The translations under genes and the position numbers were made by a program. From the NCBI RefSeq assembly GCF_023238625.1, contig NZ_CP096670.1, positions 1,973,501 to 2,037,500 of the forward strand: DNA of 64,000 nt. Reading direction: 5' to 3'. Shown here piece by piece: positions 7,451 to 26,276 of the stretch; the first letter of the stretch is position 1, and every line of letters starts with the position of its first letter. The stretch is from Agarivorans sp. TSD2052. GTDB taxonomy: Bacteria > Pseudomonadota > Gammaproteobacteria > Enterobacterales > Celerinatantimonadaceae. A model generated the notes under the pieces. That model was not told the DNA's origin. It saw only the letters and a list, made by a program, of their open reading frames with translations, and made no database searches.

Positions 7451-7470
7451 ACGCCATTCGTGAGCACATA

Positions 7471-8439: not shown

Positions 8440-8469
8440 GGTTTTTCTCCTTCGCTTGCTTTTCCCTTG

Positions 8470-8486: not shown

Positions 8487-8639
8487 AATTAATTTTATTT
8501 ATCGTTTATCATTAAATAATGAATGTTTTGTAGTGATGTGTAAACAAGTGTTTAATCCTATTTGCTGTTTTTGTGAGCGCTGCTGAATGATAGGTACTTT
8601 ATCGTCAACACAATGAGGTCATGATTACAGCTCTAGAAT

Positions 8640-8680
8640 GGTTAGTGGCTTAAGCTAAGTCACTAACCAATTTAATTTTT
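8640..8680 (+). terminator. Orphan terminator-like hairpin
   Basis: GGTTAGTGGCTTA pairs with TAAGTCACTAACC at 12 of 13 positions around a 3-base loop, and is followed by AATTTAATTTTT. It lies about 470 bases after kdgF copy 1 with no gene directly before it. It may end a long kdgF transcript or an unrecognised RNA from roughly 8480-8640. Confidence 0.45.
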
Positions 8681-9618
8681 AGTTATAATATTACAATTTA
8701 TGTGATCGGAATAAGTATTCGTCTGTGAGTCTGGTCTTGTTTTTCTGCTACTCTAAAGTCCACTAACCATTCTTGCGGTACTCAATTCTTGTCATTTGGC
8801 TGTTTAACTGCAGTATAGTTAACCACTCTGATATGACAGGCTTTATAAAAATTGTCTGACAGTATTGGCCGTGATTCTTGCCGCCTGGCTTGTATTACGA
8901 CGACTTATGTTTCAGATAATCTGAGCACTTTTAGTGGGGGCGTGCCAGACAGCTGGGGCCCTAAAATTAGACTTATTACCTATTTCAACATTGTTACCGC
9001 CTATGCCTTGGCTGCACTTGCAATAGCCCACAGAGAGCCCTAGAGCTCATTATCGATAACAAAGCACTGCCTTTATTGATGGTATGACCAAGCGTGTTAC
9101 TGCTATTAGCTTCAACGTGGAAAATGCAAATATGATTTCTATATCACCTATAACAGGTAATGGTGAGAAGCGGCAATTGAACATGGTTGTCTGTTGTTAG
9201 TGGTGATCCTCTGGTTTGGGAGGGCAAATACCCAACAGTGTTTGTTGTGGCAAAATAAGCGCCACAAGATGTCACAATCAGCGTACTTAAATCATTCATT
9301 TGTGACTCAGTTCATATTGGTAGTAATGTAATACAAATAATTCTAGCCTTTATCGTTTCAAGGATTAAAATATAGTTGATTGGGCTGCTCAGCTATGTCA
9401 CTGACTGCTCAATCAAAAATTGAATGTTCTGATTTTGAATTTCATAAAGCTTAAATAGAAAATGGAAACGTCGCCGACCAGCGTTTTGAGATACTTGAAG
9501 CTAATTTGTCTGAGGGTATACATTCCAAACATTGTGAGTTCATTGTTCATAGCCTTTCAGTTTTTCCTAGTTGGTTTACGCATTGCTTAGGCAGTGCGTT
9601 TTTTTTGGGAGTTCTAAA
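8681..9618. other. Gene-poor region before the PL7 lyase
   Basis: About 940 bases with no convincing gene. Short frames at 8852-9043 and about 9087-9200 lack ribosome binding sites and family likeness. The interval could hold decayed coding sequence, but nothing is recognisable. A cluster-type operator match lies at 9326-9336, and the PL7 promoter is probably between there and 9600. Confidence 0.4.
9326..9336. promoter_or_regulatory. Candidate operator ATGTAATACAA
   Basis: Ten of 11 bases match TTGTAATACAA. It lies about 280 bases upstream of the PL7 lyase start, farther away than the operators of the other alginate genes, so a link to PL7 is plausible but weaker. Confidence 0.4.
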
Positions 9619-10467
9619 ATGACAAATAATAATGTAGCTCACCTTGTAATGCTTACCGTAACGCTGGGCTTGTTAGCTGGGTGCGGTTCAGGCTCTGACA
9701 ATTCGGTTGTTTTGCCGCCGGTTGACCCTGATAGTTCATGGGCCTTAAGTCAATGGAAATTAACCCTGCCAGAAAGTAAAGACAGCTACTTTGGTAGCGG
9801 GGGAAGCGGAGCCGCAGAGGTAATTCCCGGTGGTTGTAGCCTTGATGGTAGCTCTCTGAATGAAGATTTGTCTAATGACTATTTTTGGGTAACCGAGGAT
9901 GCGCTTCATTTTCGAGTACCTCTAAATGGTGGTGTTTCTACGCCGAATTCTAGTTATCTGCGCTCAGAGTTGAGAGAGTTATTTACATGGTCTCCTTGTG
10001 AAAGTAATGGTGATGCAGCGAGCACTTGGCCTGTTAGCGGACAGCATCAGTTGTCTGCGGTGCTACAAATTGACGACTACGTGCAGAACACCCGACCAAA
10101 AGTCGTCGTCGGGCAGATACACGCATTAGATGTTGACCAAGCTTTGGTTAAACTATTGTGGGAAGGTTATGACAGGCCTGTACGAGTAATTTTAAATCAA
10201 CAACCAGGAAAAGACAGTGCTTTTAGTGTCGACTTAGGCGTGGTGAATACTGATTATTGGAGCTATGACATTACCATGACAGCGACCGGTGTGATAGTTA
10301 CCGCAGGGGGGGTCAGCCAAACGCTGAAATTCAATGGTGTCGATTTAAGTACGGATTGGTTAGCGCTGCAGTATTACTTTAAAGCGGGGCTATATCCCCA
10401 AGTGGACAAAAACAATGGTGGTGTTTTTGAAGCCAGCTTTCGACAAGTGGTCATAAACCATCAATGA
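9619..10467 (+). CDS. PL7 alginate lyase, outer-membrane lipoprotein
   Basis: A 282-residue secreted lipoprotein. The signal peptide ends in the lipobox LLAGC (lipidated Cys22), followed by a short Gly/Ser linker. The single alginate lyase 2 (PL7) domain shows all three family motifs: RSELREL at 115-121, QIHA at 166-169 and YFKAGLYPQ at 253-261. These hold the catalytic Arg, Gln, His and Tyr of the beta-jelly-roll lyase. It should cut alginate by beta-elimination to oligosaccharides with a 4,5-unsaturated end. In PL7 the QIH form, rather than QVH, is usually linked to activity on guluronate-containing blocks. The ATG at 9619 follows GGGAG and gives a proper signal peptide; an upstream start at 9571 would not. 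It is the only exported alginate depolymerase seen in this window. Confidence 0.92.
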   Translation: MTNNNVAHLVMLTVTLGLLAGCGSGSDNSVVLPPVDPDSSWALSQWKLTLPESKDSYFGSGGSGAAEVIPGGCSLDGSSLNEDLSNDYFWVTEDALHFRVPLNGGVSTPNSSYLRSELRELFTWSPCESNGDAASTWPVSGQHQLSAVLQIDDYVQNTRPKVVVGQIHALDVDQALVKLLWEGYDRPVRVILNQQPGKDSAFSVDLGVVNTDYWSYDITMTATGVIVTAGGVSQTLKFNGVDLSTDWLALQYYFKAGLYPQVDKNNGGVFEASFRQVVINHQ

Positions 10468-10505
10468 CCCCAAAACACCGTTTTTAGTACTAATTTTATG
10501 TGAAT

Positions 10506-10530
10506 AACCAGCATTATTGCTGGTTTATTT
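10506..10530 (+). terminator. Probable terminator after PL7 lyase
   Basis: AACCAGCA and TGCTGGTT form an 8-bp stem with a TTAT loop, followed by TATTT. The T run is short, so termination strength is uncertain. Confidence 0.6.
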
Positions 10531-10699
10531 GAATATAGTCCCACTGGCATTTATCTCTTCACCAAATGATTGCTCTGTAATATAGGGGTTAACTGGGATT
10601 TCGCGTTGAAAATTCGTGATCTTAAGCAATCTTTAACTAATTGCTTGATGAGTGATCACAAAACCATCAAAAAAAAGTTGGACTCGCCTGTAAATAGTA

Positions 10700-10710
10700 T
10701 TGTAATACAA
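10700..10710. promoter_or_regulatory. Operator TTGTAATACAA upstream of the KdgM-like porin
   Basis: A perfect copy of the cluster motif, extended here to the 13-base palindrome ATTGTA-A-TACAAT. It ends 28 bases before the porin ATG, where a bound repressor would block transcription or the early transcript. Confidence 0.65.
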
Positions 10711-10738
10711 TTGATGATTACTAAATATAGAGAGAAAT

Positions 10739-11419
10739 ATGAAACCTAATAGCCTAGTTTTGTTGGTCGCTAGTCTTGGCTTCGTCAGCGCCAATGCAGC
10801 AGCTACTTCGGTAGACTTTCGTCACGAATACAAAAGTGACACAAAGCAACATGCTAGCCGAGTGAAAATGGCTCACACCTTTGACAACAATTTTGCTTTA
10901 GCGCTAGAGCTGAAATTTAAAGGTGAAGAGGGCAAGTTCATGGAAGATTTACAGTCAAACGGATCAGAAATAGATCTCGGTTACCGTTACAAAATTAATG
11001 ACCAGTGGGCACTAATTCCTGGCATGCCTATTGAGTTTAGTGACGCCGGCACGACTTTTAAGCCGCAATTACGTCTTACCTATACCCCTGAGAATCTAAG
11101 TGGCTTCTCGCTTAGTGGGCGTTACCGTTTAGATATAAAGCCTAGCGAAGATATCAATAAGTATCGCCATCGTTATACCGCTAATATAGCGTATAAATAT
11201 CAACAGTGGGCCTTTGGTCTAGAGGGCAACTATTATTATTCAGATAACCCTGAGTATCTGCTGTTTGACAATGGCCGCACCAATTACGAAAACAACTTTA
11301 CCGTTCATTACTCAATGGGGGATTGGACACCGTGGTTGGAGTTTGGTGACGTTTCTGTATCGAGTAACTCTAGCCAAAGAGAGCTTAGAAGCCGCATTGG
11401 TTTACGTTACAGTTTTTAA
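10739..11419 (+). CDS. kdgM: KdgM-family outer-membrane porin for acidic oligosaccharides
   Basis: A 226-residue protein with a cleavable signal peptide (about residues 1-21, ending ANAAA). Alternating hydrophobic residues follow, consistent with a small beta-barrel, and the chain ends in an aromatic residue (GLRYSF), typical of outer-membrane proteins. The first strand DFRHEYK is characteristic of the KdgM oligogalacturonate porin family. KdgM-type porins in alginate degraders pass anionic alginate oligomers from outside to periplasm; the substrate here is inferred from the neighbours. It lies between the PL7 lyase and the DEH reductase, and each of these genes has its own upstream operator motif, so they look separately promoted. 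The ATG follows AGAGAGAAAT. Confidence 0.85.
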   Translation: MKPNSLVLLVASLGFVSANAAATSVDFRHEYKSDTKQHASRVKMAHTFDNNFALALELKFKGEEGKFMEDLQSNGSEIDLGYRYKINDQWALIPGMPIEFSDAGTTFKPQLRLTYTPENLSGFSLSGRYRLDIKPSEDINKYRHRYTANIAYKYQQWAFGLEGNYYYSDNPEYLLFDNGRTNYENNFTVHYSMGDWTPWLEFGDVSVSSNSSQRELRSRIGLRYSF

Positions 11420-11435
11420 AATGTGATCTAGGTAT

Positions 11436-11446
11436 TTGTAATACAA
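11436..11446. promoter_or_regulatory. Operator TTGTAATACAA upstream of the SDR gene
   Basis: A perfect match to the cluster motif between the porin stop and the SDR start, 87 bases before the SDR ATG. Confidence 0.65.
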
Positions 11447-11533
11447 TAAATAGTTTTATAATCTTATTGTATGAATAAAGGGGCTTACTCTTTTAATTGA
11501 GATCACTATAAACTAATCAATGAGAGCATAAAT

Positions 11534-12289
11534 ATGGCTAATAAAATCGCATTAATCACCGGTGCAACCGGTGGTATCGGCTTCCAAGTGGCTAAACGCT
11601 TAGGTCAAGAAGGTTATACCGTTATTCTAAATGGTATTGAAGACGAGCGGGGAGCCGAGCGTGTTGCTCAGCTGACCGCTGCGGGTATTGAAGCGGAGTA
11701 CTATGGCTTTGATGTGACCGACGATGCTGCTGTGGCAGAAAACGTGACTAAAATTGGTGAAAAATTCGGTAAAATTGATGTCGTAGTGAACAATGCTGGA
11801 GGCCTAGGCGGCCGCAGCCCTATGGAAGAAATGACCACTGAATTCTACCGGTTCGTGATGGCGCTTAATTTAGACAGTGCCTTTTTCGTGTCGCGCGCCG
11901 CCATTCCATTTTTAAAGAAAGCTGAAAATGCGTCAATCATTAACTTTACATCAAATGCAGCTTGGAATGCCGGTGGTCCTGGTGCAGGAATATACGGTGT
12001 TTCTAAGGGTGCAGTTCACACCTTAACGCGTGCTTTAGCTAAGGAATTAGCGCCAGCGGGCATTCGTGTTAATGCTGTGTCGCCCGGTACCATTGACACG
12101 CCATTTCACGCTCAAATAAAAGAAAGTAAACCCGAAGTATTCGCTTCATGGAAAGACAGTATCATGCTCGGTCGTTTAGGCCAACCCGAAGAAGTTGCCT
12201 CTACGATTGCTTTTTTGGTCAGTGACAACGCTTCTTTTATCACTGCTGAAACGGTGCAAATCGGAGGCGGACAAGCCTTAGGTATCTAG
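11534..12289 (+). CDS. SDR-family DEH reductase (4-deoxy-L-erythro-5-hexoseulose uronate to KDG)
   Basis: A 251-residue classical short-chain dehydrogenase/reductase. The Rossmann motif TGATGGIG begins at about residue 9, NNAGG is at about 87, a Ser precedes the catalytic pair YGVSK, and SPGTIDTPF follows. In alginate pathways an SDR reduces DEH with NADPH or NADH to 2-keto-3-deoxygluconate, the KdgK substrate. That specific role is inferred from position between the lyase/porin genes and the second FadR-type regulator, and from its operator. Cofactor preference cannot be settled from the residues after strand 2 (NGIEDERGAE). A strong intrinsic terminator follows. Confidence 0.82.
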   Translation: MANKIALITGATGGIGFQVAKRLGQEGYTVILNGIEDERGAERVAQLTAAGIEAEYYGFDVTDDAAVAENVTKIGEKFGKIDVVVNNAGGLGGRSPMEEMTTEFYRFVMALNLDSAFFVSRAAIPFLKKAENASIINFTSNAAWNAGGPGAGIYGVSKGAVHTLTRALAKELAPAGIRVNAVSPGTIDTPFHAQIKESKPEVFASWKDSIMLGRLGQPEEVASTIAFLVSDNASFITAETVQIGGGQALGI

Positions 12290-12345
12290 GCATTTAGTTG
12301 CTTGGGCGGCTAGAAACGCTATTAATAGTAATCCTTGCCAGTTCT

Positions 12346-12378
12346 AAAAGACCACACAGTAAACGGTGTGGTCTTTTT
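12346..12378 (+). terminator. Intrinsic terminator after the SDR gene
   Basis: AAAAGACCACAC and GTGTGGTCTTTT form a 12-bp perfect stem with an 8-base loop and a terminal T run. Confidence 0.9.
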
Positions 12379-12488
12379 GTTTTTAAGACTGAAGTTTGGC
12401 TCGGTGGTCACAAAGTAGAATGCACTGCTATGTTTGTGCTTGATTGACCGCTATATACAACCTGATTTATGTTCTAACAGTAAACATA

Positions 12489-12499
12489 TTGTAATATCT
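12489..12499. promoter_or_regulatory. Weak operator-like site TTGTAATATCT
   Basis: Eight of 11 bases match, with the left half intact. It is 233 bases upstream of the second FadR-type gene and could be an autoregulatory half-site or chance. Confidence 0.25.
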
Positions 12500-12731
12500 T
12501 TCATTAATTTCTCGCAGCTTTCAAGGTAAAGCAATATTGATTATCTTTCTAATGGACGGCCTTTGAATAGGGCCTTAAGTGTTATAAATAAAGCGATCAA
12601 GCCAGCAATTGCTAGCTTTTTTTGTTTATGATAGCGAGCAAATCAGGTAGGATTAATAATACTTAATGAGTAGCAGTAATCTCAGATCGATTAGTCTGGG
12701 ATTACTAATATTTATTTTTTAGGGTTTTTTC

Positions 12732-13454
12732 ATGTCTAATGAATTCGATTTAATCAAAGGTTCTTCCCGTAGCCTTCATTTACAAGTTGCCAGAGATATT
12801 GCTCGTGGCATTCTATCCGGCCAATTACCGCAAGGAAGTATCATTCCAGGTGAGTTAGACCTTTGCGAGCAGTTTGGGGTGAGTAGAACGGCCTTAAGAG
12901 AAGCTATTAAATTATTGAACTCGAAAGGTCTGCTCGAATCTCGTCCAAAAATCGGCACTAGAGTAAGAGACCGCGAATATTGGAATTTTCTCGATTCCCA
13001 ATTATTAGATTGGATGATGGGCTTAGAAAATACCGAGCGCTCATATCAAGAATTTTTGGCGCTACGACGGGCAATTGAACCTGAAGCTGCAGCGTTAGCA
13101 GCTAGAAATGCCACGGCTGAGCAGCGCATGTTGTTATCTGAAGTTTTCCAGAAGATGGCTGACGTAGCGAGCGGTAAAGATGTTACTCACCAGTGGACCG
13201 ATGTTGACATGGAGTTCCACCGGTTGGTTTTCCTCTCTACCGGCAATAGTTTCTATATTCCTTTCGCGAACGTATTACGTACTATGTTTGTGGGCTTTAT
13301 TGACCATTCATCTAAAGAGGGTGGCACCTGTATTGAAGAACATAAAGCTATCTATGATGCGATAATGATAGGCAATGCCGACAAAGCACGTGAAGCAAAC
13401 TTAGCGTTACTTAATAATAGCAATCACCGTTTGCCTTCAAATAATGCTGCATAG
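12732..13454 (+). CDS. FadR-type GntR regulator (alginate utilisation, copy 2)
   Basis: A 240-residue regulator with an N-terminal GntR helix-turn-helix (LCEQFGVSRTALREAIKLLN) and a C-terminal FCD domain (VDMEFHRLVFLSTGNSFYI, then EGGTCIEEHKAIYDAI). It aligns without gaps over nearly all its length with the regulator at 6731-7450, including almost identical recognition-helix residues, so both should read the same DNA motif. The differences fall mostly in the linker and the FCD domain, which leaves room for different ligands. It sits at the centre of the cluster, monocistronic between two hairpin terminators. Role inferred: repressor of the TTGTAWTACAA regulon. Confidence 0.88.
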   Translation: MSNEFDLIKGSSRSLHLQVARDIARGILSGQLPQGSIIPGELDLCEQFGVSRTALREAIKLLNSKGLLESRPKIGTRVRDREYWNFLDSQLLDWMMGLENTERSYQEFLALRRAIEPEAAALAARNATAEQRMLLSEVFQKMADVASGKDVTHQWTDVDMEFHRLVFLSTGNSFYIPFANVLRTMFVGFIDHSSKEGGTCIEEHKAIYDAIMIGNADKAREANLALLNNSNHRLPSNNAA

Positions 13455-13486
13455 TTATAGTTAATCGCTCCATTCCCCCCATCTCA

Positions 13487-13515
13487 ATGCCGAACTCACT
13501 CTGTGATTTCGGCAT
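13487..13515 (+). terminator. Hairpin after second FadR-type gene
   Basis: ATGCCGAACTCAC pairs with GTGATTTCGGCAT (one mismatch) around a 3-base loop, followed by CTATTTGTTG. A convincing stem but a weak T run. Confidence 0.55.
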
Positions 13516-13984
13516 CTATTTGTTGCCAACTTTGTAACGCTTGTGCTTTCGGTTTTGGCTAGTTGGCCAGAATAACCTGCTTAATACGGTGAAATAATGT
13601 CGGTGTTACTCACAACATTAATCGAATATTGTTCGTGGCGTACATTGTCGTTCACCTAACACACTCGATGACTAAACCCACACTGATAATGCCCCTTGTC
13701 AGTGCTGTTTGGAAATCGGCAGCCACTAAGATAGCTAAACGACTTAGTCTTATTGCGGCTGATTTTGTGGAGTAGGGTATTGTTACTTGTTGACGATGTA
13801 CCAACACCTTCCTGCCCATCAGGGCACCGTCTGCAGGGGCGAAATGTCGAGTGCTATTGGCGAAGTGTCGAGAGCTATTTACAGTAGCCTTAAGAAACAC
13901 GATATGACATACAAGTAGATGTGAATGACCGCTAAGTATTGTTTGCCAATGATTTGAGACTTAGGTTTGCTGATTATTAAACAC
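13516..13984. other. Intergenic region between convergent genes
   Basis: About 470 bases between the second FadR-type gene and the end of the PL17 operon. A minus-strand frame at 13652-13900 (82 residues) has no ribosome binding site or recognisable family. No repeats or RNA genes were seen. Confidence 0.4.
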
Positions 13985-14007
13985 AAAAAAGCCCCGCGAT
14001 GCGGGGC
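13985..14007 (-). terminator. Intrinsic terminator of the PL17 operon
   Basis: On the minus strand GCCCCGC and GCGGGGC form a 7-bp GC stem with a 3-base loop followed by six T residues, starting 22 bases after the PL17 stop codon. Confidence 0.92.
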
Positions 14008-14028
14008 CAAATAAATAAGCCAGCAAGC

Positions 14029-16176
14029 TTATTTCACTAGTATAGGACCACTCCAGCGAAGCGTTTCACCATTAAGCTCTAATTGGTGTTGGGTCGCCTC
14101 TTGTACGTTGGCTTGGTTAGATACACAAACCAAAATTTGCTTTCCTGACAGCAAATGAATAGCTACTGCCGATGCTACTTTGTTATGTGCCAATACTTCT
14201 ACAGATGCAACTTGTCCACGCGCATCGGTGCTTGCTTCAATTGCTTCATTGAAATAACCGTGCGTTTCAAAAACGTTTGCGAATAGATGTGATTTACCCT
14301 GTTGACGTAATATCAAAACAGGTTCGCTGCGTAAGTTGAAGTCTGGGTCATTAGCGCCAGTGCGCGCCATAATCACTTGGCTATTGTCTACTGCTGAACT
14401 AATCATTGAGTAGTAACTGTTGCCTTGCAACCAAGTGACTAAGCTAGAACCGCTTACTTCTGCGCTAGCTTGGTTCCACAAATGCTGGTAACCATTACTA
14501 TCACCTAGGGGTTTTAAGCGGGCGTTACATTCGTAGTTAAAGTCGCTGCGAATAAACTGACCTGAATAATGTAAGGTGTAATCGTAGTTGTGCTGTTCTT
14601 CGCTGACTAAGCGAAATAAATCTAGCACTAATGGTTTGGCGAAACCTTCAGCTTCAAACATAATCACACTGCGCTGCTGGTCTACCCCTGGGTAGTAGTT
14701 TCGTACTATCGCACTCATGGCCTGCAGCTTGCTGTCGTCGGTAACGAAGAAGTGTTTCTCGCCCCATTTTTCTTCGGCGGTGGCGGTATCGCCTTGGTTT
14801 TGGCTTTGAAAATCAACCACTACAGTGTTGTGAGCAATAGTTTGCTTGGCGTAGCTTTTGTTTTCAGGGATGTATCGACCACCAAACTTAGGCTCAACAT
14901 TTACCCAGCGACCAAAGCCGTAATCATGCAGGACTTCTTGGCCACGGTTGAATAGGTTGAAATGCAAACCATCGAAGTGCCCATGGTCTAGCGCAGAGTG
15001 CAATTTGTGGTCACTGCCATGTTGGCCAAACCACAATAGTGCCATGCTGTCGTCTTGTGTTGCATCGCGGTGACGCAAAATAGCTACGCCGCCACGGTCG
15101 CCTTCGGCGCCATCGCTGAGTATTAAGCTGCCCCAGTTAAAGCCACCAATGTTGTCGGCGTTGTCACTGGCTTCAGACAAACTTGCACCTGAGGCATGAA
15201 CCCATACTTTAGCTTGATGTTTGGCCATTGCTACTAGGTTGGCATCACGTTGATAGCGGCTAAAACACATGCTGGTAGCGATTAAGATACCCTCGTCGTT
15301 GATGTCCATGGTTTTAGATGAATCATTTAACGCTGGTAATACACCATTTGGAAAGGCTGTTGCCATTACTGCATAGGTGGTGGTTTTAATTACTTGGTCT
15401 TTAAGCTGGTAAATGCCTATTTCTGGTTGGCGACGCTCAATAGCTTCGGCAAATAAGAAAATAGGGCGCAGTGAGAAACGGTGATAATACGGGCCTTCCA
15501 TGTAATAGCCGTCTGGCGAAAACAGTTGAGTAAGTTGAGCAATAAAGCCACCGCTTACACTGTCGCCTTTTAAGCCATACATTGCTTTGTCTACACTGGC
15601 TTGGTCTTGAATGGCATAACCACAAATGCCTACACCTGCAACAGCCCATAAACCATGGTTGTGTACAATGTCGAAATCATGCGCATATACATCAACAAAT
15701 AGCTCAATCATTAGTTTGAACAGATCGTTTTCGATCAGTGTTTGTTCGTCAGCAGGCAGTTTATGGCGAATACACGAATAAGCACATGAGGCATACAACA
15801 TCCACATGTTCTCGTTCAGCGTTTGGTGGAATAAACGCCCAGGAGGATTTGAATCTCGGCTAGTGTTTAGCTCTAAAGTAGGGTACACCTTGGCATATTC
15901 AACCAACATGCTACGCGCATAATCAAGGTAGCGTTGGTCTTCGGTAATCAAGTACAAACGGCCCGCTAAATCCAAGTGGATGTAGTTTTGCTTGTGGCGG
16001 TTGTGTTCGTAACCGCCAGCTTCACCGTGGCCTGGGATCTCAATGCCAATAGGCATGTAGGCTTCTAAAGCGGCCATTTCGGCTGCAATCGATTGGCCGA
16101 TTAGCGTGTCGGTATTTAGGTGCTTAGCGAGCTCTTTTGCTTCTTCAAAGCTGATCAATAAGGGTTGGTAAGTCAT
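14029..16176 (-). CDS. PL17 exo-oligoalginate lyase, copy A (cytoplasmic)
   Basis: A 715-residue polysaccharide lyase of family 17 with an N-terminal alpha/alpha-barrel and C-terminal heparinase II/III-like beta-sheet domains. The catalytic residues known from Saccharophagus Alg17c are visible: Asn173-His174 in HNHGLW, and Tyr230 in YYMEGPYYHR with the same 57-residue spacing. The enzyme removes unsaturated monomers from the end of alginate oligomers. No signal peptide is present, so it acts in the cytoplasm on imported oligomers. The ATG at 16176 was chosen because GAGG precedes it and because a longer start would overlap the upstream gene. The gene follows the second PL17 gene after 2 bases, so the two are co-transcribed and translationally coupled. 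Confidence 0.9.
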   Translation of the reverse strand: MTYQPLLISFEEAKELAKHLNTDTLIGQSIAAEMAALEAYMPIGIEIPGHGEAGGYEHNRHKQNYIHLDLAGRLYLITEDQRYLDYARSMLVEYAKVYPTLELNTSRDSNPPGRLFHQTLNENMWMLYASCAYSCIRHKLPADEQTLIENDLFKLMIELFVDVYAHDFDIVHNHGLWAVAGVGICGYAIQDQASVDKAMYGLKGDSVSGGFIAQLTQLFSPDGYYMEGPYYHRFSLRPIFLFAEAIERRQPEIGIYQLKDQVIKTTTYAVMATAFPNGVLPALNDSSKTMDINDEGILIATSMCFSRYQRDANLVAMAKHQAKVWVHASGASLSEASDNADNIGGFNWGSLILSDGAEGDRGGVAILRHRDATQDDSMALLWFGQHGSDHKLHSALDHGHFDGLHFNLFNRGQEVLHDYGFGRWVNVEPKFGGRYIPENKSYAKQTIAHNTVVVDFQSQNQGDTATAEEKWGEKHFFVTDDSKLQAMSAIVRNYYPGVDQQRSVIMFEAEGFAKPLVLDLFRLVSEEQHNYDYTLHYSGQFIRSDFNYECNARLKPLGDSNGYQHLWNQASAEVSGSSLVTWLQGNSYYSMISSAVDNSQVIMARTGANDPDFNLRSEPVLILRQQGKSHLFANVFETHGYFNEAIEASTDARGQVASVEVLAHNKVASAVAIHLLSGKQILVCVSNQANVQEATQHQLELNGETLRWSGPILVK

Positions 16177-16178
16177 GA

Positions 16179-18317
16179 TTAACCTCGGTTCTTTAGTAAA
16201 GCCAGAGATCCCTGCCAGCAATAGGTTTGTTGATTAAATTCAATAGAGTGTTGTGTATTGGGTGTAACATCGCGCTGATTACTTATCATAATCGTGAAGT
16301 TGATGTCTTCCCCCTGCACAGTAATAACACTGCCGATGTCATTGCTAACAATCACCGTCACTTGGTTTACTTTACCGCGAGCATTGGTACTTGCTTCTAC
16401 CGCTTCGTTAAAGTACCCGTGGGTTTCTAATACGTTAGCAAATACCGTAGATTTAGCCTTACGGCGTAAGATAAAACTGGTTTCGTTACGCAGGTTAAAT
16501 TGTGGGTCGTTAGCGCCAACACGCGTAAAAAACAGTTCATCGTTGGCTTCACTCGCACTAATCCACGAGTAATAACTGCTGCCTTGTAGCCAGCTAACTA
16601 AGCTGTTATCCGCGGCTTTACCTTGCGCTTCATTCCACAGGTGTTGATAACCATAATTGTCACCCATTGGGGCTAATTCAGTGTGGGTTTGGTAGTCGCT
16701 ATTACAGCGTACAATTTGCCCTTGGTATTGCAGGGCGTAATCGTAGCTATGTTCTTGTTCGCTGCTTAAACGGAATACATCAACTAGCAAGGGAGCTTCA
16801 AGGGCTTCATCGTTAATTAGTACTAAACTGCGCTGTTGTTGAACGCCGGGGTAGAAATCATCGGCAAAGGCACTGACGGCCTGTAAGTCTTGATTGTCTG
16901 TATTAAAGAAATGGGGAATACCATGTTTGCTGTCGGCTAACTTAACGTCAAAGTTATTTTGACAGCCTTGATCTACCGCTACTGCATTATGGGCTATGGT
17001 TTGGCGTGCGTAAGATTTATTTTCGTCTAGGTAACGCCCACCAAATTTAGGCTCTACATTTACCCAGCGACCAAATCCGTATTCTTTTAACACTTCTTGG
17101 CCGCGGTTAAAGAAGCTAATACCCAAGGTATCAAAATGGCCATGGCCCATGCCATGTTGGCCATAGTTCATCACTAACTGGCTAACGTCACCACCTTTGC
17201 TTTGCATACGAACAAAACCTTGAGCTCCGCGGTCGCCATTGGGGCCTTCGTTTAACTCTACGCTTGGCCAGTGTGGCAGGCTTGGGTTGGTGCTTTGCTC
17301 ATAAGCATCGGAAAGTGTTAAGCCACAACTATGTAGCCAAACGCCTTGCTGAATCTGTGCCATAGCTAATAAGCGTTCATCATGACCGTAATGTTTGTAG
17401 GCTAAGCTGACGGCAACCACCACGCCTTGATCTTTGATATCCATTGATAATGAAGCATCATTTAGCGCAGGGAATACGCCATTAGGGTAGGCGGTAGCAA
17501 GCATCGCTTTTATGGTTTTGCCGATGACTTGATCTTTATATTCAAAGATATTTAGTTCTGGGCGGTGGCGGTGTAATACCTCGGCAAATAAACACAGTGG
17601 TCTAATGGCGTAACGGTGATAATAGGGGCCTTCCATATAGTAGCCAGAGGGAGCAAATAGTTGGCTAATTTGAGCTAGAAAACCGCCAGTCACATCATCG
17701 CCTTTCAAGCCATGCACTGACATCTCTATGTATTCGGGTTTATCAATGGCGAGCCCACATATACCGACGGCGGCAACAGCCCATAAACCATGGTTATGAA
17801 TGCGGTCAAAGTCGAAGCCATATTTGTCGGTGAACATGTCCAGCATCGGTTGAAATAACTGGCCTTCGATGTGTTGGCGCTGTTCTTCGTTTAACCAATG
17901 TTTAATACAGCTGTATCCTAGGCTGGCATATAAAAGCCAAACGTGTTCGTTTAAGATCTGGTGGAACAAGCGCCCAGGAGGATTAGTATTACGCTGAATA
18001 TGGAAACCAAAACCTAAATATTTGTCAGCGTATTCACTTAACATATCAGCTGCGTAATGAGCGTATTGGTCTTCACCTGTAATTAGAAATAGGCGGCCTG
18101 CTTGGTTAATATACTGGTAGTTCTGTTTGTGGCGGTTATGCTCATACCCGCCAGCTTCACCGTGTCCAGGCACTTCAATAGGATTGGCCATGTAAGTTTG
18201 GGTATCGCTAATCATGCTAGCTAAGGTTTTACCCATTAAGCTATCGCGCCCCAGTTGATTACGCATATCTAATATTTCGTGATGACTCATTAACACTGCA
18301 TTTACGTTCTCAAGCAT
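16179..18317 (-). CDS. PL17 exo-oligoalginate lyase, copy B (cytoplasmic)
   Basis: A 712-residue PL17 protein, first gene of a two-gene operon with the adjacent copy A. Catalytic residues are preserved: Asn175-His176 in HNHGLW and Tyr232 in YYMEGPYYHR. It is similar to copy A over the whole length, for example in the shared EVPGHGEAGGYEHNRHKQNY region (copy A has EIPGHGEAGG), but diverged enough in the middle and C-terminal parts that a recent duplication is unlikely. There is no signal peptide, so it is cytoplasmic. The ATG at 18317 is preceded by GAGG; a longer frame to 18371 would overrun the operator region. It is divergent from symporter 2 across a 300-bp region with two operator matches. 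Confidence 0.9.
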   Translation of the reverse strand: MLENVNAVLMSHHEILDMRNQLGRDSLMGKTLASMISDTQTYMANPIEVPGHGEAGGYEHNRHKQNYQYINQAGRLFLITGEDQYAHYAADMLSEYADKYLGFGFHIQRNTNPPGRLFHQILNEHVWLLYASLGYSCIKHWLNEEQRQHIEGQLFQPMLDMFTDKYGFDFDRIHNHGLWAVAAVGICGLAIDKPEYIEMSVHGLKGDDVTGGFLAQISQLFAPSGYYMEGPYYHRYAIRPLCLFAEVLHRHRPELNIFEYKDQVIGKTIKAMLATAYPNGVFPALNDASLSMDIKDQGVVVAVSLAYKHYGHDERLLAMAQIQQGVWLHSCGLTLSDAYEQSTNPSLPHWPSVELNEGPNGDRGAQGFVRMQSKGGDVSQLVMNYGQHGMGHGHFDTLGISFFNRGQEVLKEYGFGRWVNVEPKFGGRYLDENKSYARQTIAHNAVAVDQGCQNNFDVKLADSKHGIPHFFNTDNQDLQAVSAFADDFYPGVQQQRSLVLINDEALEAPLLVDVFRLSSEQEHSYDYALQYQGQIVRCNSDYQTHTELAPMGDNYGYQHLWNEAQGKAADNSLVSWLQGSSYYSWISASEANDELFFTRVGANDPQFNLRNETSFILRRKAKSTVFANVLETHGYFNEAVEASTNARGKVNQVTVIVSNDIGSVITVQGEDINFTIMISNQRDVTPNTQHSIEFNQQTYCWQGSLALLKNRG

Positions 18318-18351
18318 TGTAACCTCGTAATACTCATATCTATTGGCTATA

Positions 18352-18362
18352 AAGTAATACAA
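18352..18362. promoter_or_regulatory. Candidate operator AAGTAATACAA upstream of the PL17 operon
   Basis: Nine of 11 bases match the cluster motif, 35 bases upstream of the PL17 copy B start codon. Confidence 0.45.
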
Positions 18363-18537
18363 ATAGACCAACTAGTCAGCATAAAGATTTAAAAGAGTGA
18401 GCTTACTCACAATATATCTAACAGGGAGCTTCGAGCTGTCTCTAAGCCCTTTTATACGGGGCTTATACGGTACTTGATTGCAAATAACTTTTCTGACAAT
18501 TAAAAACAATTCGATCTCCATCACATATAATGTGCTT

Positions 18538-18548
18538 TTGTATTACAA
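18538..18548. promoter_or_regulatory. Operator TTGTATTACAA upstream of symporter 2
   Basis: A perfect match to the cluster motif read on the opposite strand, 70 bases before the symporter ATG. A CRP-like sequence, TTCGA-N6-TCACA, lies just upstream at 18510-18525. Confidence 0.65.
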
Positions 18549-18618
18549 TAAGATGATATTGCTTTTAAACTACGTCTGTTCTTTAATTTTCAGTTTCAAT
18601 TAACCTTCAGAGGCAGTT

Positions 18619-20385
18619 ATGAGTATTGATATCGTTGTTGTACTAGCCTACTTCGTATTTTTGATTGCGATAGGCTGGATGTTTCGTACTTTTACCTCTT
18701 CCACCAGTGATTACTTTAGAGGCGGCGGTAAAATGCTGTGGTGGATGGTAGGTGCGACAGCATTTATGACTCAATTTTCAGCATGGACCTTTACTGGAGC
18801 AGCAGGGAAAGCATTTACCGATGGTTTTGCCATCGTTATCTTGTTCTTGGCCAACGCGTTTGGCTATTTTATGAATTACATTTATTTCGCACCTAAGTTT
18901 AGGCAGCTTCGCGTTGTTACGGCCATTGAGGCGATTAAAAAGCGCTTTGGCCGTACCTCTGAGCAGTTTTTTACTTGGTTAGGTATGCCTGACAGCTTGA
19001 TTTCTGCGGGTGTCTGGTTGAACGGTTTGGCCATTTTTGTTGCCGCCGTATTTAACATCCCGATGGAAACAACCATTATCTTTACCGGTGTAGTACTCGT
19101 GATTATGGCCGTAACTGGTGGATCTTGGGCCGTTGTAGCTTCTGATTTTATGCAGATGTTAGTGATTATGGCTGTGACAATTACGTGTGCTATTGCCGCT
19201 TACTTCCATGGCGGCGGTTTAACCAATATCGTTAGTAATTTCCATGGCGATTTCGTTGTAGGCAGTAACTTAAACTACATTAGTATTTTCTTACTTTGGA
19301 TCGTGTTCATCTTTGTTAAGCAATTCGGTGTCATGAATAACAGCATTAATGCCTACCGTTATTTGTGTGCCAAAGACAGTGACAATGCGCGTAAAGCTGC
19401 AGGTCTTGCTTGTATCTTAATGATTGTTGGTCCGCTAATTTGGTTCTTACCGCCTTGGTATGTGAACGCGTTCATGCCTGACTTTGCCGAAGCTTATGGC
19501 TCGGTGGGGGGCAGTGATGCAGCTTATTTAGCCTTTGTTCAAAATGTGATGCCTGCGGGCATGGTAGGTTTGTTAATGTCGGCAATGTTTGCGGCTACGA
19601 TGAGCTCAATGGATTCAGGTTTAAACCGTAATGCAGGCATTTTTATACGTAATTTCTATTCGCCGATCGTACGAAAAGAAGCGGCCAGTGAAAAAGAGCT
19701 GATTGTAGCGAGTAAGTTAGCCACGATATTTATGGGCTTTGTGATTATCGCAATAGGCTTGTTTATAAATTCATTACGTCATTTAAGTTTGTTCGATATT
19801 GTGTTGAACATTGGTGCTCTAATTGGCTTCCCAATGTTAATTCCTGTGTTATTAGGCATGTGGGTGCGTAACACGCCTGATTGGGCTGGATGGGCCACCT
19901 TGATAGTTGGTGGTGTGGTGTCTTACGTATTCGGTGTGGCACTTACAGCAGATGATATCCAAAACTGGTTCGGTTTAGAGCAGCAACTAACAAGCCGCGA
20001 ATGGGCAGACCTTAAAGTTGGCTTAAGCTTGGCTGCACACGTAATTGTTACCGGTGGATTCTTCCTTGCAACAACCAAGTTCTACCGTGGCCGCACCCCT
20101 GAGCGTCAAGCTGAGGTTGATGAACTATTTCGTGATTGGAATACGCCGGTTTATGCAGAAAGCGAAGAGCAACAAAACCTTGATACTCGCCAACGTTCAA
20201 TGTTGGGCAACCTCATTAGCGTAGCAGGCTTCGGAATTATCGCGATGGCTTTGATTCCAAACGATATATCAGGCAGAGCTTTATTCGTATTATGTGGAAC
20301 TATCGTGTTAACGGCGGGGATACTGTTGGTTCAAGCAGCACGTAAACCTAATAAAACCTTAACCGTTGAACCTGCAACTGAATAA
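18619..20385 (+). CDS. SSS-family Na+/solute symporter (alginate monomer transporter, copy 2)
   Basis: A 588-residue polytopic inner-membrane symporter starting MSIDIVVVLAYFVFLIAIGW, paralogous to the protein at 4483-6255. Both share the LeuT-fold core stretch SAMFAATMSSMDSGLNRN (AAMFAATM in copy 1) and TGGSWAV. It should couple inward Na+ flow to uptake of DEH or short unsaturated alginate products, as the ToaA/ToaB symporters of Vibrio do; the substrate is inferred. It is the first gene of the apparent operon symporter-kdgF-kdgK-eda, with 115 bases to kdgF and short gaps after that. AGAGG precedes the ATG. Confidence 0.88.
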   Translation: MSIDIVVVLAYFVFLIAIGWMFRTFTSSTSDYFRGGGKMLWWMVGATAFMTQFSAWTFTGAAGKAFTDGFAIVILFLANAFGYFMNYIYFAPKFRQLRVVTAIEAIKKRFGRTSEQFFTWLGMPDSLISAGVWLNGLAIFVAAVFNIPMETTIIFTGVVLVIMAVTGGSWAVVASDFMQMLVIMAVTITCAIAAYFHGGGLTNIVSNFHGDFVVGSNLNYISIFLLWIVFIFVKQFGVMNNSINAYRYLCAKDSDNARKAAGLACILMIVGPLIWFLPPWYVNAFMPDFAEAYGSVGGSDAAYLAFVQNVMPAGMVGLLMSAMFAATMSSMDSGLNRNAGIFIRNFYSPIVRKEAASEKELIVASKLATIFMGFVIIAIGLFINSLRHLSLFDIVLNIGALIGFPMLIPVLLGMWVRNTPDWAGWATLIVGGVVSYVFGVALTADDIQNWFGLEQQLTSREWADLKVGLSLAAHVIVTGGFFLATTKFYRGRTPERQAEVDELFRDWNTPVYAESEEQQNLDTRQRSMLGNLISVAGFGIIAMALIPNDISGRALFVLCGTIVLTAGILLVQAARKPNKTLTVEPATE

Positions 20386-20500
20386 TTCAATTAACAACAA
20401 TCGAGCAGCAAGGTCGCGCGCGGCCTTGCGATTCGATAATTAGATAGCCGTCTATCTATTGATAGGCAGTAAGTACAATTAGATAATAACGAGAAACACT

Positions 20501-20836
20501 ATGACAGCATTTTTTAATTCAGCAGAAGCCACTTGGGACGACCTTGGCGATGGCATCACCCGTAAAATTGTCGGTTATACCGAGCAGTTAATGGTTGTTC
20601 ATGTTCGCTTTGAGAAGGGGGCCATTGGTGTACCTCACGCTCATGAACTACATGATCAAATTGGTTACGTTGCTGAAGGCAGCTTTGAAGCTGAAGTTAA
20701 CGGCGAAAAGAAAATTGTTAAAAAAGGCGATGCCTATATCGCTTCAAAAACCTTTATGCATGGGGCCGTGGCGCTTGAAGAAGGCAGTGTACTAGTAGAT
20801 TGTTTCTCACCCCCGCGTGAGGATTTCTTGGCTTAA
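20501..20836 (+). CDS. kdgF: KdgF-like cupin, copy 2
   Basis: A 111-residue cupin that linearises unsaturated uronate monomers to DEH. The cupin metal motif is VPHAHELHDQIGYVAEGSFE and the later His is in KTFMHGAVALEEGSV. It is about three-quarters identical by eye to copy 1 at 7828-8166. It lies 115 bases after the symporter and 12 bases before kdgK, inside the catabolic operon, so this copy is probably the main pathway enzyme. Confidence 0.9.
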   Translation: MTAFFNSAEATWDDLGDGITRKIVGYTEQLMVVHVRFEKGAIGVPHAHELHDQIGYVAEGSFEAEVNGEKKIVKKGDAYIASKTFMHGAVALEEGSVLVDCFSPPREDFLA

Positions 20837-20848
20837 GAGGAAACATTC

Positions 20849-21793
20849 ATGACTGAGTTAAAAGTCGCTTTTATTGGCGAATGCATGGTTGAGTTACAAC
20901 AGCAACAGCAGGGCTTACGCCAAAGCTTTGGTGGTGACACCTTAAATACAGCGGTGTATTTTTCGCGGTTAGTGAACAGTGCTACCGTGAGTTATGTTAC
21001 TGCCTTAGGTACCGATCAATTAAGCGACCAGATGCTTGCTATATGGCATCAAGAGCAAATTGACACTCAATTGGTACAGAGGTTGGGTGACAAATTACCT
21101 GGTATTTACATGGTGCAGGTTGATGAGACCGGTGAGCGTAGCTTTCTATACTGGCGAAATGATTCTGCGGCCAAATACTGGCTGGATAATGTAAGTGATG
21201 CATTGTTAGAACAATTGTATGCTTACGATGTTGTGTATTTATCGGGGATCAGTGTCGCTATTCTCTCTGAAGGGATGCGCGAGAAACTTTACCATGTTTT
21301 AGCTCAGTGCCAAGCTAATGGAGCTAAAGTAATGTTTGATAACAACTTCAGACCAGCACTTTGGCAAAGTAAGCAACAGGCGATTGATGCTTACGCAAAA
21401 ATTTTAGCTTGTACTCATACAGCGATGCTTACCTTTGATGACGAGCAAGCTATTTATGGTGATGAACACATAGAACAATGTATTGAACGTACCTTAGCGC
21501 TAGGTGTCAGTGAGTTGGTGATAAAGCGTGGCAGCAAAGACTGCCTAATTGTCACTGAAGAGGGTGCTATTAGTGTGCCTGCCACCAAGGTAGCCAATGT
21601 AGTGGATACTAATGCAGCAGGGGATTCTTTTGCAGCTGGTTATTTGGCGGCTCGTCTGCAAGGTGCTAACGCTAAACAAGCAGCGTTAACCGGCCATAAA
21701 ATGGCAGGAACCGTTATACAGCATAAAGGTGCCATTATTGATGCTAAGCACATGCCTACCATTCAGCTATTATCTACCGCAGATGCGGTATAA
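20849..21793 (+). CDS. kdgK: 2-keto-3-deoxygluconate kinase
   Basis: A 314-residue PfkB-family sugar kinase that phosphorylates KDG to KDPG with ATP in the cytoplasm. The N-terminal PfkB glycine motif is FGGDTLNTAVYFSRL. The C-terminal signature DTNAAGDSFAAGYLAARL contains the catalytic Asp in the anion-hole GD. The length matches KdgK. Position between kdgF and eda supports the substrate over other PfkB options. An AGAGGAAA ribosome binding site precedes the ATG. Confidence 0.93.
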   Translation: MTELKVAFIGECMVELQQQQQGLRQSFGGDTLNTAVYFSRLVNSATVSYVTALGTDQLSDQMLAIWHQEQIDTQLVQRLGDKLPGIYMVQVDETGERSFLYWRNDSAAKYWLDNVSDALLEQLYAYDVVYLSGISVAILSEGMREKLYHVLAQCQANGAKVMFDNNFRPALWQSKQQAIDAYAKILACTHTAMLTFDDEQAIYGDEHIEQCIERTLALGVSELVIKRGSKDCLIVTEEGAISVPATKVANVVDTNAAGDSFAAGYLAARLQGANAKQAALTGHKMAGTVIQHKGAIIDAKHMPTIQLLSTADAV

Positions 21794-21809
21794 CTATTAG
21801 GATAGAAAA

Positions 21810-22424
21810 ATGACATTAAATGAACAACTTCAGAAGCTTAAAGTAATTCCTGTTATTGCCATTGATAACGCCGATGATGCAGTACCGCTAGCAAAAGTTT
21901 TGGTTGATAACGGTTTACCTTGTGCCGAAATTACGTTTAGAACTCCTGCTGCAGCCCAAGCCATTGCCAATATGCGTGAAGCCTACCCTGATATGTTAAT
22001 CGGTGCTGGTACGGTGTTAACGAGTGAGCAAGTAGACCAAGCTATTGATGCGGGTGTAGATTTTGTTGTAAGCCCAGGTTTTAACCCGACCACCGTTCTT
22101 TACTGCCAACAACGAAATATGCCAATTATTCCAGGTGTAAATAACCCTTCGTTGGTTGAGCAAGCGATGGAAATGGGCTTAGATACCTTGAAGTTTTTCC
22201 CTGCTGAGCCTTCTGGCGGCGTAGGCATGTTGAAAGCATTGACTGCGGTTTATCCTGTTAAGTTCATGCCTACGGGCGGAGTATCAGTAAAAAACATTAA
22301 CGACTACTTAAGCATTAATGCAGTTCTTGCTTGCGGTGGTACGTGGATGGTACCGGCCAATTTAATTAAAGAACAAAACTGGGATGCCATTGCGGAGTTG
22401 GTTAAAGCTATCGACTTAAGTTAA
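21810..22424 (+). CDS. eda: KDPG aldolase (2-dehydro-3-deoxyphosphogluconate aldolase)
   Basis: A 204-residue class I aldolase that cleaves KDPG to pyruvate and glyceraldehyde-3-phosphate. Visible family marks are the catalytic Glu in CAEITFRTPAA, GAGTVLTSEQ, and the Schiff-base Lys in LKFFPAEPSGG, followed by the phosphate-binding FMPTGGVS. Length is as usual for Eda. It is the last gene of the symporter-kdgF-kdgK-eda operon, 16 bases after kdgK and followed by an intrinsic terminator. Confidence 0.95.
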   Translation: MTLNEQLQKLKVIPVIAIDNADDAVPLAKVLVDNGLPCAEITFRTPAAAQAIANMREAYPDMLIGAGTVLTSEQVDQAIDAGVDFVVSPGFNPTTVLYCQQRNMPIIPGVNNPSLVEQAMEMGLDTLKFFPAEPSGGVGMLKALTAVYPVKFMPTGGVSVKNINDYLSINAVLACGGTWMVPANLIKEQNWDAIAELVKAIDLS

Positions 22425-24592: not shown

Positions 24593-24604
24593 AAAATCAC
24601 AACT

Positions 24605-24648
24605 GCCTATGTGTAGTGAATGTTGCTACACATAGGCTTTGTTTATTT
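24605..24648 (+). terminator. Intrinsic terminator between chemoreceptor and tandem phospholipase genes
   Basis: A perfect 12-bp stem (GCCTATGTGTAG and CTACACATAGGC) with a 9-base loop, followed by TTTGTTTATTT on the plus strand. The two flanking genes converge on it. Confidence 0.85.
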
Positions 24649-24653
24649 CGCGA

Positions 24654-26276
24654 TTAATTATTTAGCGCAAAGCCTATACCTAAGCTTTGGTTGTGTTTGT
24701 TGTAGTCAATCAGCGATTCACCGTAACCATTGAAATATTTTAAGTATAAGGCCAGTTCTTTGGTGATTGGGTAGGCCCACCTCACGTCAATAGCACCTTT
24801 ATTATCTGTTTTTAGATTGTTGCGAGCCATCAAGCTTAAGCGATGATTGTCGTTTATTTGCCAATTTGCGGTTAATTCTCCGTAGCCATAATAATCTTCA
24901 ATATTAGGGTTGTCGTCTTCGCTGGCATCTTCTTTTAGTCGGTACCAAGGTTTAATGCCAATAGTGACCGGCTTGGCATCAAAGCTAAGTTCGGTATAGA
25001 TACGATTCCAAGAGCGCGAACGTATCTGAGTTTGACCATTTGACTCATGTACGAATCCAAACCTTACCCATTCTGGAAGCCACACGGAACTGTCCTGCTG
25101 CTGTTGCTGGGCATTCCACTGGTAAAACAATTCTGGTTCGTAGTTGGTTTCTCTAATGGCATCTCCATCGCGGCCATAAGGTTGCCAGAATGTTTGCTGG
25201 CTATAAGCGAAGCTTAGATTGTCACTGCTGGTAAATAGGGTAAAAGGAAACGTGAGTCGAAAACTCAACTGAAACTCAAGCTCAACTTTCTCGGGCGTGT
25301 CACCTGTAAGCCCTCCGGCTAGATCTGGCGCTGCAGGTGAAGGGTTGTACTTTACGGGAAGTATATAATTGTCTCTAAATATGCTCATGCCGGCAAAGGT
25401 CCATTTGCTGCTTTGCGATGCCATTTCTCGCCTGTCGCCGATTCGATTTAAGGATACCCCTAAACCAAAAGATTGATTATGAATATTGTAATCAATCATT
25501 GATTCGCCATAACCGTTGAAGTACTTAGCATACAGCGAAATAGTTGGAGACATACAGTAGGAGAAGCGCAGATCAATCGCCCCTTTGTTATCAGACTTGA
25601 GGTTGTTGCGCCCCATCGCTTTAATCGCGTGGTTGCACTGGTCGTCGCCAAACAGATAAGCGACAGACACCTCTCCATAGCCATAATAGTCAGTGAATGA
25701 TTCGCCAGCGTTGATTTCTGGACCAACGGGTAGCCAAGGTTTCACGCGAAAAAGCCAACTATCATAGTTGGCATCTAACTGTGCGTAAATTCTGTCCCAT
25801 GAGCGGTCGAATTCATCATATGAGCCGTTAGCTTTGTGGCTATAACCAATGCTAACAGCACGGAAGTGTAATTTATTTTGGCTTATCGCGAACTCTGAAG
25901 GGCGCCATGTATAAATAAGCTCGGGTTCGTAGTTGGTATCTCGGAAAGGAGAAGAGAATGGCTTGTTGTAGACTTGCCAAAAGCTTTGTTGGGTATAAGC
26001 AAAGCTTAAATAATCACGATTAGCTAACATGCCCTCGGCGACAATCAATTTACCACTAATTTGAAATTCTGCTTCAAGATTATCTAGTCGTTGACCGTCA
26101 CTGCCATCTTTCGTAGCAAAAACGCTTGAATACTCACTTAAAGAAGGAGGGTTAGGGTTGTATTTCGCCAGCAGAATATAGGTGTCGTGATGAGCTACCA
26201 GTCTGGGTCCCGCGGCTTCAACAGAGAGAGCCAAAGTGGAACCAAACACAGCCAGTGCTAAATAGCATTTTTTCAT
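24654..26276 (-). CDS. Tandem-duplicated outer-membrane phospholipase A (OMPLA), first half catalytically dead
   Basis: A 540-residue protein with a signal peptide (about 1-21) and then two consecutive copies of the PldA/OMPLA beta-barrel, about 22-285 and 290-540. Each copy alone matches the roughly 270 residues of mature E. coli OMPLA. Each carries the family stretches FRDTNYEPE or IRETNYEPE, KPW, and GYGESxIDYNxHNQS near its end. Copy 2 keeps the catalytic triad: His410 and Ser412 in HESNGQ, and Asn424 in SRSWNR. In copy 1 the same positions are His147, Ala149 and Asp161 (HKANGS and DRSWDR), so it cannot hydrolyse. Normal OMPLA is activated by dimerisation, so this looks like a covalent pseudo-dimer of one active and one inactive barrel. 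It is monocistronic and convergent with the chemoreceptor gene. Confidence 0.88.
   Translation of the reverse strand: MKKCYLALAVFGSTLALSVEAAGPRLVAHHDTYILLAKYNPNPPSLSEYSSVFATKDGSDGQRLDNLEAEFQISGKLIVAEGMLANRDYLSFAYTQQSFWQVYNKPFSSPFRDTNYEPELIYTWRPSEFAISQNKLHFRAVSIGYSHKANGSYDEFDRSWDRIYAQLDANYDSWLFRVKPWLPVGPEINAGESFTDYYGYGEVSVAYLFGDDQCNHAIKAMGRNNLKSDNKGAIDLRFSYCMSPTISLYAKYFNGYGESMIDYNIHNQSFGLGVSLNRIGDRREMASQSSKWTFAGMSIFRDNYILPVKYNPSPAAPDLAGGLTGDTPEKVELEFQLSFRLTFPFTLFTSSDNLSFAYSQQTFWQPYGRDGDAIRETNYEPELFYQWNAQQQQQDSSVWLPEWVRFGFVHESNGQTQIRSRSWNRIYTELSFDAKPVTIGIKPWYRLKEDASEDDNPNIEDYYGYGELTANWQINDNHRLSLMARNNLKTDNKGAIDVRWAYPITKELALYLKYFNGYGESLIDYNKHNQSLGIGFALNN

Follow-up and report, generated by a model that had tools for sequence, protein, structure and literature searches.

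OMPLA is a textbook membrane enzyme that is said to be activated by reversible dimerisation, and in the dimer of the E. coli enzyme the catalytic calcium is bound by Ser152 of one monomer together with the Ser106 loop of the other. What becomes of such a shared site when two OMPLA barrels are encoded in a single chain? The question is raised by a gene of Agarivorans sp. TSD2052 that lies in a window (the whole stretch of DNA analysed, 64,000 nucleotides) covering positions 1973501–2037500 of the genome. Judging from the residues of its two halves, the product is rather likely to be an OMPLA dimer that occurs naturally as one asymmetric chain, with a single live site composed from both halves, and that arose by duplication and fusion.

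Gene layout, predicted fold and distribution

As shown in Table 1, the gene is read from the reverse strand, and its open reading frame (24654–26276) has no internal stop. The first-pass annotation, made from the letters alone, had proposed two full OMPLA domains in one chain, and this is borne out by two adjacent PLA1 matches in one frame and 12 + 12 predicted strands, which place the protein among the multi-barrel outer-membrane proteins, i.e., those with at least two complete barrels per chain. Pfam recognises only PLA1 (PF02253) in the 540-aa protein, with 495 bits over two stretches; in the profile search of the whole genome, the two matches score 278.5 and 226.4 bits, both above the curated cut-off of 27 bits, and share one open frame of 545 codons. 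The same search gave no third PLA1 match in the complete, single-contig 4.6 Mb genome, in which the tandem gene is the sole PLA1 gene found.

Table 1. Coordinates of the tandem OMPLA gene and its parts within the window; corresponding E. coli residues are in parentheses.
Feature	Position	Strand	Basis or remark
Tandem OMPLA gene, 540 aa	24654..26276	−	Including stop codon; ATG start; kept in 7/7 genus genomes
Signal-peptide-like N-terminus, residues 1–22	26211..26276	−	By eye; residues 1–21 with pLDDT <50 in the model
Copy 1, residues 23–278, predicted OMPLA barrel of 12 strands, dead by sequence	25443..26210	−	Pfam PLA1, AlphaFold2, Foldseek
Copy 1 loop L2, residues 107–113 (FSSPFRD), Ser-x-Pro-Phe kept	25938..25958	−	Alignment
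Copy 1 dead site, residues 147–161: His147, Ala149 (Ser144), Asp157 (Ser152), Asp161 (Asn156)	25794..25838	−	
Linker, residues 279–302, from copy 1 strand 12 to copy 2 strand 1	25371..25442	−	Mostly low model confidence
Copy 2, residues 303–540, predicted OMPLA barrel of 12 strands, catalytic triad	24657..25370	−	Pfam PLA1, AlphaFold2
Copy 2 loop L2, residues 369–376 (RDGDAIRE), Ser-x-Pro-Phe lost, invariant Asp372	25149..25172	−	Alignment
Copy 2 active-site segment, residues 410–424: His410, Ser412, Ser420 (Ser152), Asn424	25005..25049	−	All four residues 7/7

The structure prediction of the two barrels that the annotation had called for gave 12 strands in each half. In the AlphaFold2 model of the full protein, built with 9 sequences, 24 strands of at least 8 residues are predicted, 12 per half, with moderate confidence (pLDDT 69.9, pTM 0.59), and copy 1 modelled alone also has 12 long strands (pLDDT 75.2, pTM 0.74). 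The best Foldseek rows for the full model are OMPLA entries, with TMt of 0.79–0.88 over one half (which half is not given), and OMPLA entries are likewise on top for the copy 1 model (TMt 0.80–0.88); with its 12 strands, each half is by prediction an OMPLA-like barrel. The linker between them, which would be periplasmic, keeps a RIGD-R-E stretch in 7/7 Agarivorans proteins. Two minor features were also observed. Cysteines at residues 214 and 241 of copy 1 (window 25554–25637, reverse strand) are kept in 7/7 proteins, and copy 2 has none; by strand order the two may lie in adjacent periplasmic turns, and a disulfide is conceivable. At the other end of the protein (window 24654–24670, reverse strand), the last residue is Asn or Gln in 7/7 fused proteins and Leu in 61/76 single OMPLAs, the fused proteins ending two residues before the hydrophobic position that usually closes the singles; the Gly-x-Gly-x-x-Leu pattern ahead of the C-terminal end is retained.

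The homology search for other tandem PldA proteins, another check proposed at the outset, found the gene in all seven Agarivorans genomes that the family search returned, and no tandem among the matches listed for other genera in the samples covered. The family search comprised 12 genomes: in each of the seven of the genus, two PLA1 matches lie side by side in an open frame of 545–550 codons, which encodes a fused protein of 539–541 aa, and four of these genomes, the present one included, are single-contig; of the five genomes that belong to other genera, four gave no PLA1 match and the fifth carries a lone PLA1 ORF of 339 aa. PLA1 occurs in 182/345 genomes of the order sample, where no open frame outside the genus exceeds 434 aa among the matches listed; 19 genomes outside the genus have at least two PLA1 matches, of which 13 showed no tandem on renewed search and the other 6 have ORFs of 294–371 aa among the matches listed. 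A junction profile, made from the second half of copy 1 and the first half of copy 2, had some match in 91 of the 369 genomes of the class sample and in 100 of the 398 genomes of the phylum sample; in both samples, which overlap, the genome studied here was the only one with a full match among the matches listed. Another match covers part of the junction (G1024, profile positions 44–258), but its ORF of 381 aa could not hold two barrels. When the ORFs of at least 200 aa in the collected loci were scanned with the HMM, no protein other than the seven from Agarivorans had two PLA1 domains, and a contig scan with two exact peptides returned 64 stretches, nine of which encode relatives, with one tandem, a full-length match from Agarivorans sp. 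Toyoura001 (NZ_BJEQ01000017.1).

A sequencing or assembly duplicate, which the first-pass annotation had named as a possible undoing of its claim, is ruled out for all practical purposes, because the halves are only ~41% identical in the TSD2052 protein (37.7–42.9% across the seven proteins, from two alignments) and the same fused gene stands in 7/7 genus genomes, including the four single-contig ones.

Catalytic and calcium-site residues of the two halves

Positions are given in the mature E. coli numbering, obtained through alignment with 1fw2 (chain number minus 6, catalytic His = 142). Single OMPLAs served for comparison in two sets. The first contains 76 singles; outside it are loci in which the search motif occurred in no ORF (L052, L058, L059, L067, L069, L070, L072 and L075) or whose ORF was short (L068, L071 and L074). 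The second, an HMM reselection of ORFs of at least 200 aa, contains 120 singles, with L068 left out as partial and the doubtful L059 and L070 included; it is biased to the top matches of the order, class, phylum and contig searches, plus 39 regions hand-picked from the class and phylum samples. L059 and L070 (genomes G150 and G320) are ORFs of 395–400 aa with weak, split PLA1 matches (~30 bits) and perhaps represent a barrel family distantly related to OMPLA. L068 and L074 (G037:C19) concern a second PLA1 gene that is apparently broken, its parts lying in separate ORFs (231 and 137 aa).

It has been reported that the triad of E. coli OMPLA is His142-Ser144-Asn156, with calcium as cofactor (PMC5043575). 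In the 120 singles, His142 and Ser144 are invariant (120/120 each), position 156 is Asn in 111, Asp in 8 and Ser in 1, and position 152 is Ser in 111 and Glu in 9. Copy 2 has His142, Ser144, Ser152 and Asn156 in all seven proteins of the genus, so the triad His410/Ser412/Asn424 noted by the annotation is present and kept throughout. Copy 1 (n = 7, likewise one genus) has His142 in 7/7, Ala at 144 in 7/7, Asp at 152 in 7/7 (Asp157 of the chain), and at 156 Glu in five, Asp in one (Agarivorans sp. TSD2052) and Asn in one. His147, Ala149 and Asp161 are thus found as described, at a spacing identical to that of the copy 2 triad; as for the conservation of the Ala/Asp change, it holds for Ala and fails for Asp161. 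The reverse possibility, that copy 1 keeps Ser/Asn in close relatives, is ruled out for Ser; Asn occurs in 1/7. Asp at 156 is by itself no sign of a dead enzyme, because 8 singles carry it. At the residue level, the fixed lesion of copy 1 is Ser144 to Ala, and the change at Asn156 is variable. The His-Ser-Asn triad is therefore complete in copy 2 and broken in copy 1, which has the mark of a pseudoenzyme, the loss of an otherwise invariant catalytic Ser144, conserved among 7 orthologues. Of the proposed pair of one dead and one intact site, the dead copy 1 and the copy 2 triad stand, with the refinement that by family standards the site of copy 2 is not self-sufficient.

This follows from loop L2, in which the 120 singles have Ser106 in 120, Pro108 in 110 and Phe109 in 116. 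Copy 1 has Ser106, Pro108 and Phe109 in 7/7 each. The Ser-x-Pro-Phe motif is found in none of the seven copy 2 sequences, where the loop has one residue fewer, Ile (6) or Val (1) stands in place of Phe109, and an invariant Asp (7/7) falls at 106 or 107; the gap placement is ambiguous, giving either Asp at 106 in 7/7 or Gly (5), Ser (1) and Val (1) at 106 with Asp at 107. If the calcium-site set is taken as Ser152 plus L2 with Ser106, following the ligand roles known for the E. coli dimer, copy 1 retains only L2 and copy 2 only Ser152. The losses of the two copies, as read from these residues, are reciprocal, a finding that is new here. The pattern can also be seen among 45 positions conserved to at least 92% in the 76 singles: copy 1 departs from the singles at 14 of these positions and copy 2 at 9; five changes are common to both (68, 187, 188, 230 and 240), those private to copy 1 are at 111, 116 (one sequence), 144, 152, 154 (one sequence), 156, 178, 185 and 250, and those private to copy 2 are at 93 (two sequences), 106, 108 and 109, three of the four lying in L2. 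Since the L2 motif is lost in copy 2 and kept in copy 1, the live site is probably shared by the halves: on these ligand roles, the triad and Ser152 of copy 2 would, with the L2 of copy 1, probably make up one complete site, and the opposite corner would be dead. Position 73, which is Leu in E. coli OMPLA and part of the dimer interface, is Gly in 7/7 copy 1 and Phe in 7/7 copy 2; a small-large fit between the halves is conceivable.

In the 120 singles, residue 152 and L2 vary together. All nine singles with Glu152 (L058, L064, L067; L088, L117, L119, L123, L127, L136) have an aromatic residue in place of Pro108 and an L2 of 10 residues, two shorter, and Pro108 is present in 110 of the 111 singles with Ser152. 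The combination found in copy 1 (Asp152 with canonical L2) occurs in 0/9 acidic singles, and that of copy 2 (Ser152 with altered L2) in 1/111 Ser152 singles; in terms of residues, each Agarivorans half breaks the rule in cis and obeys it in trans. The weight of this rule is limited, because the nine acidic singles possibly go back to one evolutionary event. In an unrooted tree they form two groups (UFBoot 100 and 99), and all that stands between these is a pair of divergent ORFs and nodes whose support is 58 and 52. An independent double origin of the acidic-152/altered-L2 state was dropped on account of these weak nodes and ORFs, and the coupling in singles may stem from a single event.

Origin of the fused pair, its proposed working and the alternatives

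In two trees, the sequences of both copies group in a single clade of 14 tips (UFBoot 100), also when the tested sites are excluded, which points to duplication and fusion before the radiation of the genus, although the copy stems are long and long-branch attraction is possible. A separate origin of the halves, through fusion of unrelated pldA genes, is not favoured by this single clade. Purifying selection is strong on both halves: for the 3 pairs with finite dS in each half (most of the 21 pairs being saturated at silent sites), dN/dS is 0.020–0.028 for copy 1 and 0.019–0.025 for copy 2. The low value for copy 1 indicates that this half is maintained and not decaying, and a recent duplication with relaxed selection on copy 1 is thereby ruled out.

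In the proposed scheme, an ancestral pldA gene would have undergone tandem duplication and then fusion, after which the halves specialised reciprocally. Copy 2 would bring the His-Ser-Asn triad and Ser152, and copy 1, having neither nucleophile nor Ser152, would be an obligate partner barrel that gives an intact L2 in trans; a single composite, calcium-dependent active site would then lie at the barrel-barrel interface, its mirror image being dead. The two barrels would pair within the same chain, copy 1 would provide the partner surface, copy 2 would hydrolyse outer-leaflet phospholipids, and the covalent link would free pairing from lateral diffusion. Permanent activity of the fusion is only one option.

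The residue pattern indicates complementary copy 1 and copy 2 faces and not that they belong to the same chain, and the linker of ~24 residues is poorly predicted, so that copy 2 of one protein could in principle pair with copy 1 of another in a swapped or chain-like arrangement whose activity would still be regulated by association; we regard this as unlikely, however, since a covalent neighbour is present at a much higher effective concentration, and the interface residues of the E. coli OMPLA dimer belong to strands 1 and 12, an arrangement that would bring the C-end of one barrel beside the N-end of the other. It is just as unlikely that copy 2 works alone, or as a copy 2–copy 2 dimer between chains, with copy 1 serving as a spacer, folding aid or anchor whose site is free to decay. 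The full triad and Ser152 of every copy 2 would suit such an arrangement, but copy 2 has lost the L2 motif, including a Ser106 that none of the 120 single OMPLAs lacks, so a copy 2–copy 2 dimer would be without it on both sides, and copy 1 is equally constrained and keeps exactly this motif, neither of which free decay predicts.

A slim chance is left for a protein that is no longer a phospholipase, with both halves impaired (copy 1 in the triad, copy 2 in L2) and the double barrel acting as a structural element or channel; the L2 change of copy 2 does hit a position invariant in singles, and the C-terminus lacks the last hydrophobic residue, but copy 2 keeps His-Ser-Asn and Ser152 in 7/7 while nearby residues drift, and the gene is the only PLA1 gene of the genome. 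A single large barrel made of all 24 strands, in place of two with 12 each, is very improbable: the full model has weak Foldseek matches to LptD and receptors (rmsd ~16–26), yet its best rows are OMPLA over one half, copy 1 modelled by itself gives an OMPLA barrel, and each half keeps the first and last strands of OMPLA, with a conserved linker between them.

Within the preferred reading of a single-chain asymmetric dimer, a further role for the dead site can be put forward tentatively, and we think it more doubtful than the dimer itself. Copy 1 Asp157 and the L2 residue Asp372 of copy 2, both 7/7, would face each other because of the dimer symmetry, and their carboxylates could bind calcium tightly as a structural metal staple that locks the barrels permanently, leaving the Ser/Ser site as the sole catalytic one. 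Against the staple counts the report that calcium adds little to the stability of the E. coli OMPLA dimer (PMC10153742). If the staple reading is true, the dimer would be constitutive, the arrival of substrate in the outer leaflet would be the only gate on activity, and the dimerisation switch of OMPLA would be naturally uncoupled from catalysis.

The protein resembles OMPLA/PldA (PF02253; E. coli 1QD5, 1QD6 and 1FW2; Salmonella 7EZZ) in its PLA1 domains, in the predicted 12-stranded barrel of each half and in the E. coli-type His-Ser-Asn triad of copy 2. OMPLA/PldA, however, has one barrel per chain and forms a dimer of identical chains, whereas in the Agarivorans protein two unlike barrels are fused, one is without the nucleophile, and L2 and Ser152 are divided between them. 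A covalent OMPLA dimer was reportedly engineered by Kingma and Egmond in 2002; it shares the covalently joined barrel pair but is a laboratory construct of identical subunits, and the Agarivorans pair is natural, genetically fused and asymmetric. In pseudoenzyme–enzyme heterodimers, a dead paralogue is retained to complete or regulate the live one, and a dead and a live paralogue are also combined here, both being integral beta-barrels in one chain. Multi-barrel outer-membrane proteins, of which a systematic survey is said to have been given by Solan in 2021, include GfcD/YjbH. These have more than one beta-barrel per chain and are thought to result from lineage-specific fusion, GfcD having barrels of 12 and 13 strands, a periplasmic domain and a proposed role in export (PMC8592465, PMC11494523); unlike the present case, no enzyme pair with a dead half is described for them in the cited passages. 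A literature search of titles and abstract openings, with the Solan survey and most subscription papers outside its scope, returned no fused or half-dead OMPLA. Two-barrel outer-membrane proteins are thus already known, and a fused, half-dead OMPLA would be a new form of OMPLA.

Whether dimerisation or substrate access is the switch of OMPLA is disputed: the E. coli enzyme has been described as dormant and monomeric in vivo, with calcium thought to align its two active sites (PMC10153742), and OMPLA has also been termed a constitutive dimer (PMC7617971). A naturally fused pair in which a single site is live would offer a direct test of dimerisation as the switch, since it would have no regulation by the lateral meeting of two chains, and it would mean that one active site per dimer is enough. 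The reciprocal losses would amount to an evolutionary map of the residues that serve in cis and in trans. The protein would in addition be a rare two-barrel outer-membrane enzyme, whose folding would pose a problem to the barrel assembly machinery.

Genomic surroundings

The tandem gene stands alone between a convergent chemotaxis receptor gene and a gene for an AAA_33 protein, and an inverted repeat (24594–24648) lies between it and the receptor gene. Nine neighbouring proteins were sought at six other loci of the genus (13.5 kb each); a FemAB-like protein was found at one of them, and the others at none. The OMPLA gene is thus maintained while its surroundings change, and operon or neighbour clues to function were of no help. 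One match to MlaA in the same genome indicates that it has at least part of the usual lipid-asymmetry pathway.

Elsewhere in the window, positions 4483–22424 hold an alginate-use cluster with near-duplicated genes, namely two sodium symporters, two cupin genes and two GntR-like regulators, as well as two adjacent 730-aa heparinase/alginate-lyase-like genes that overlap at 16179–16221. In this cluster, one member per pair, a PL7 lyase and a KdgM porin were identified with Pfam, the regulators were assigned by eye, and the rest are open reading frames.
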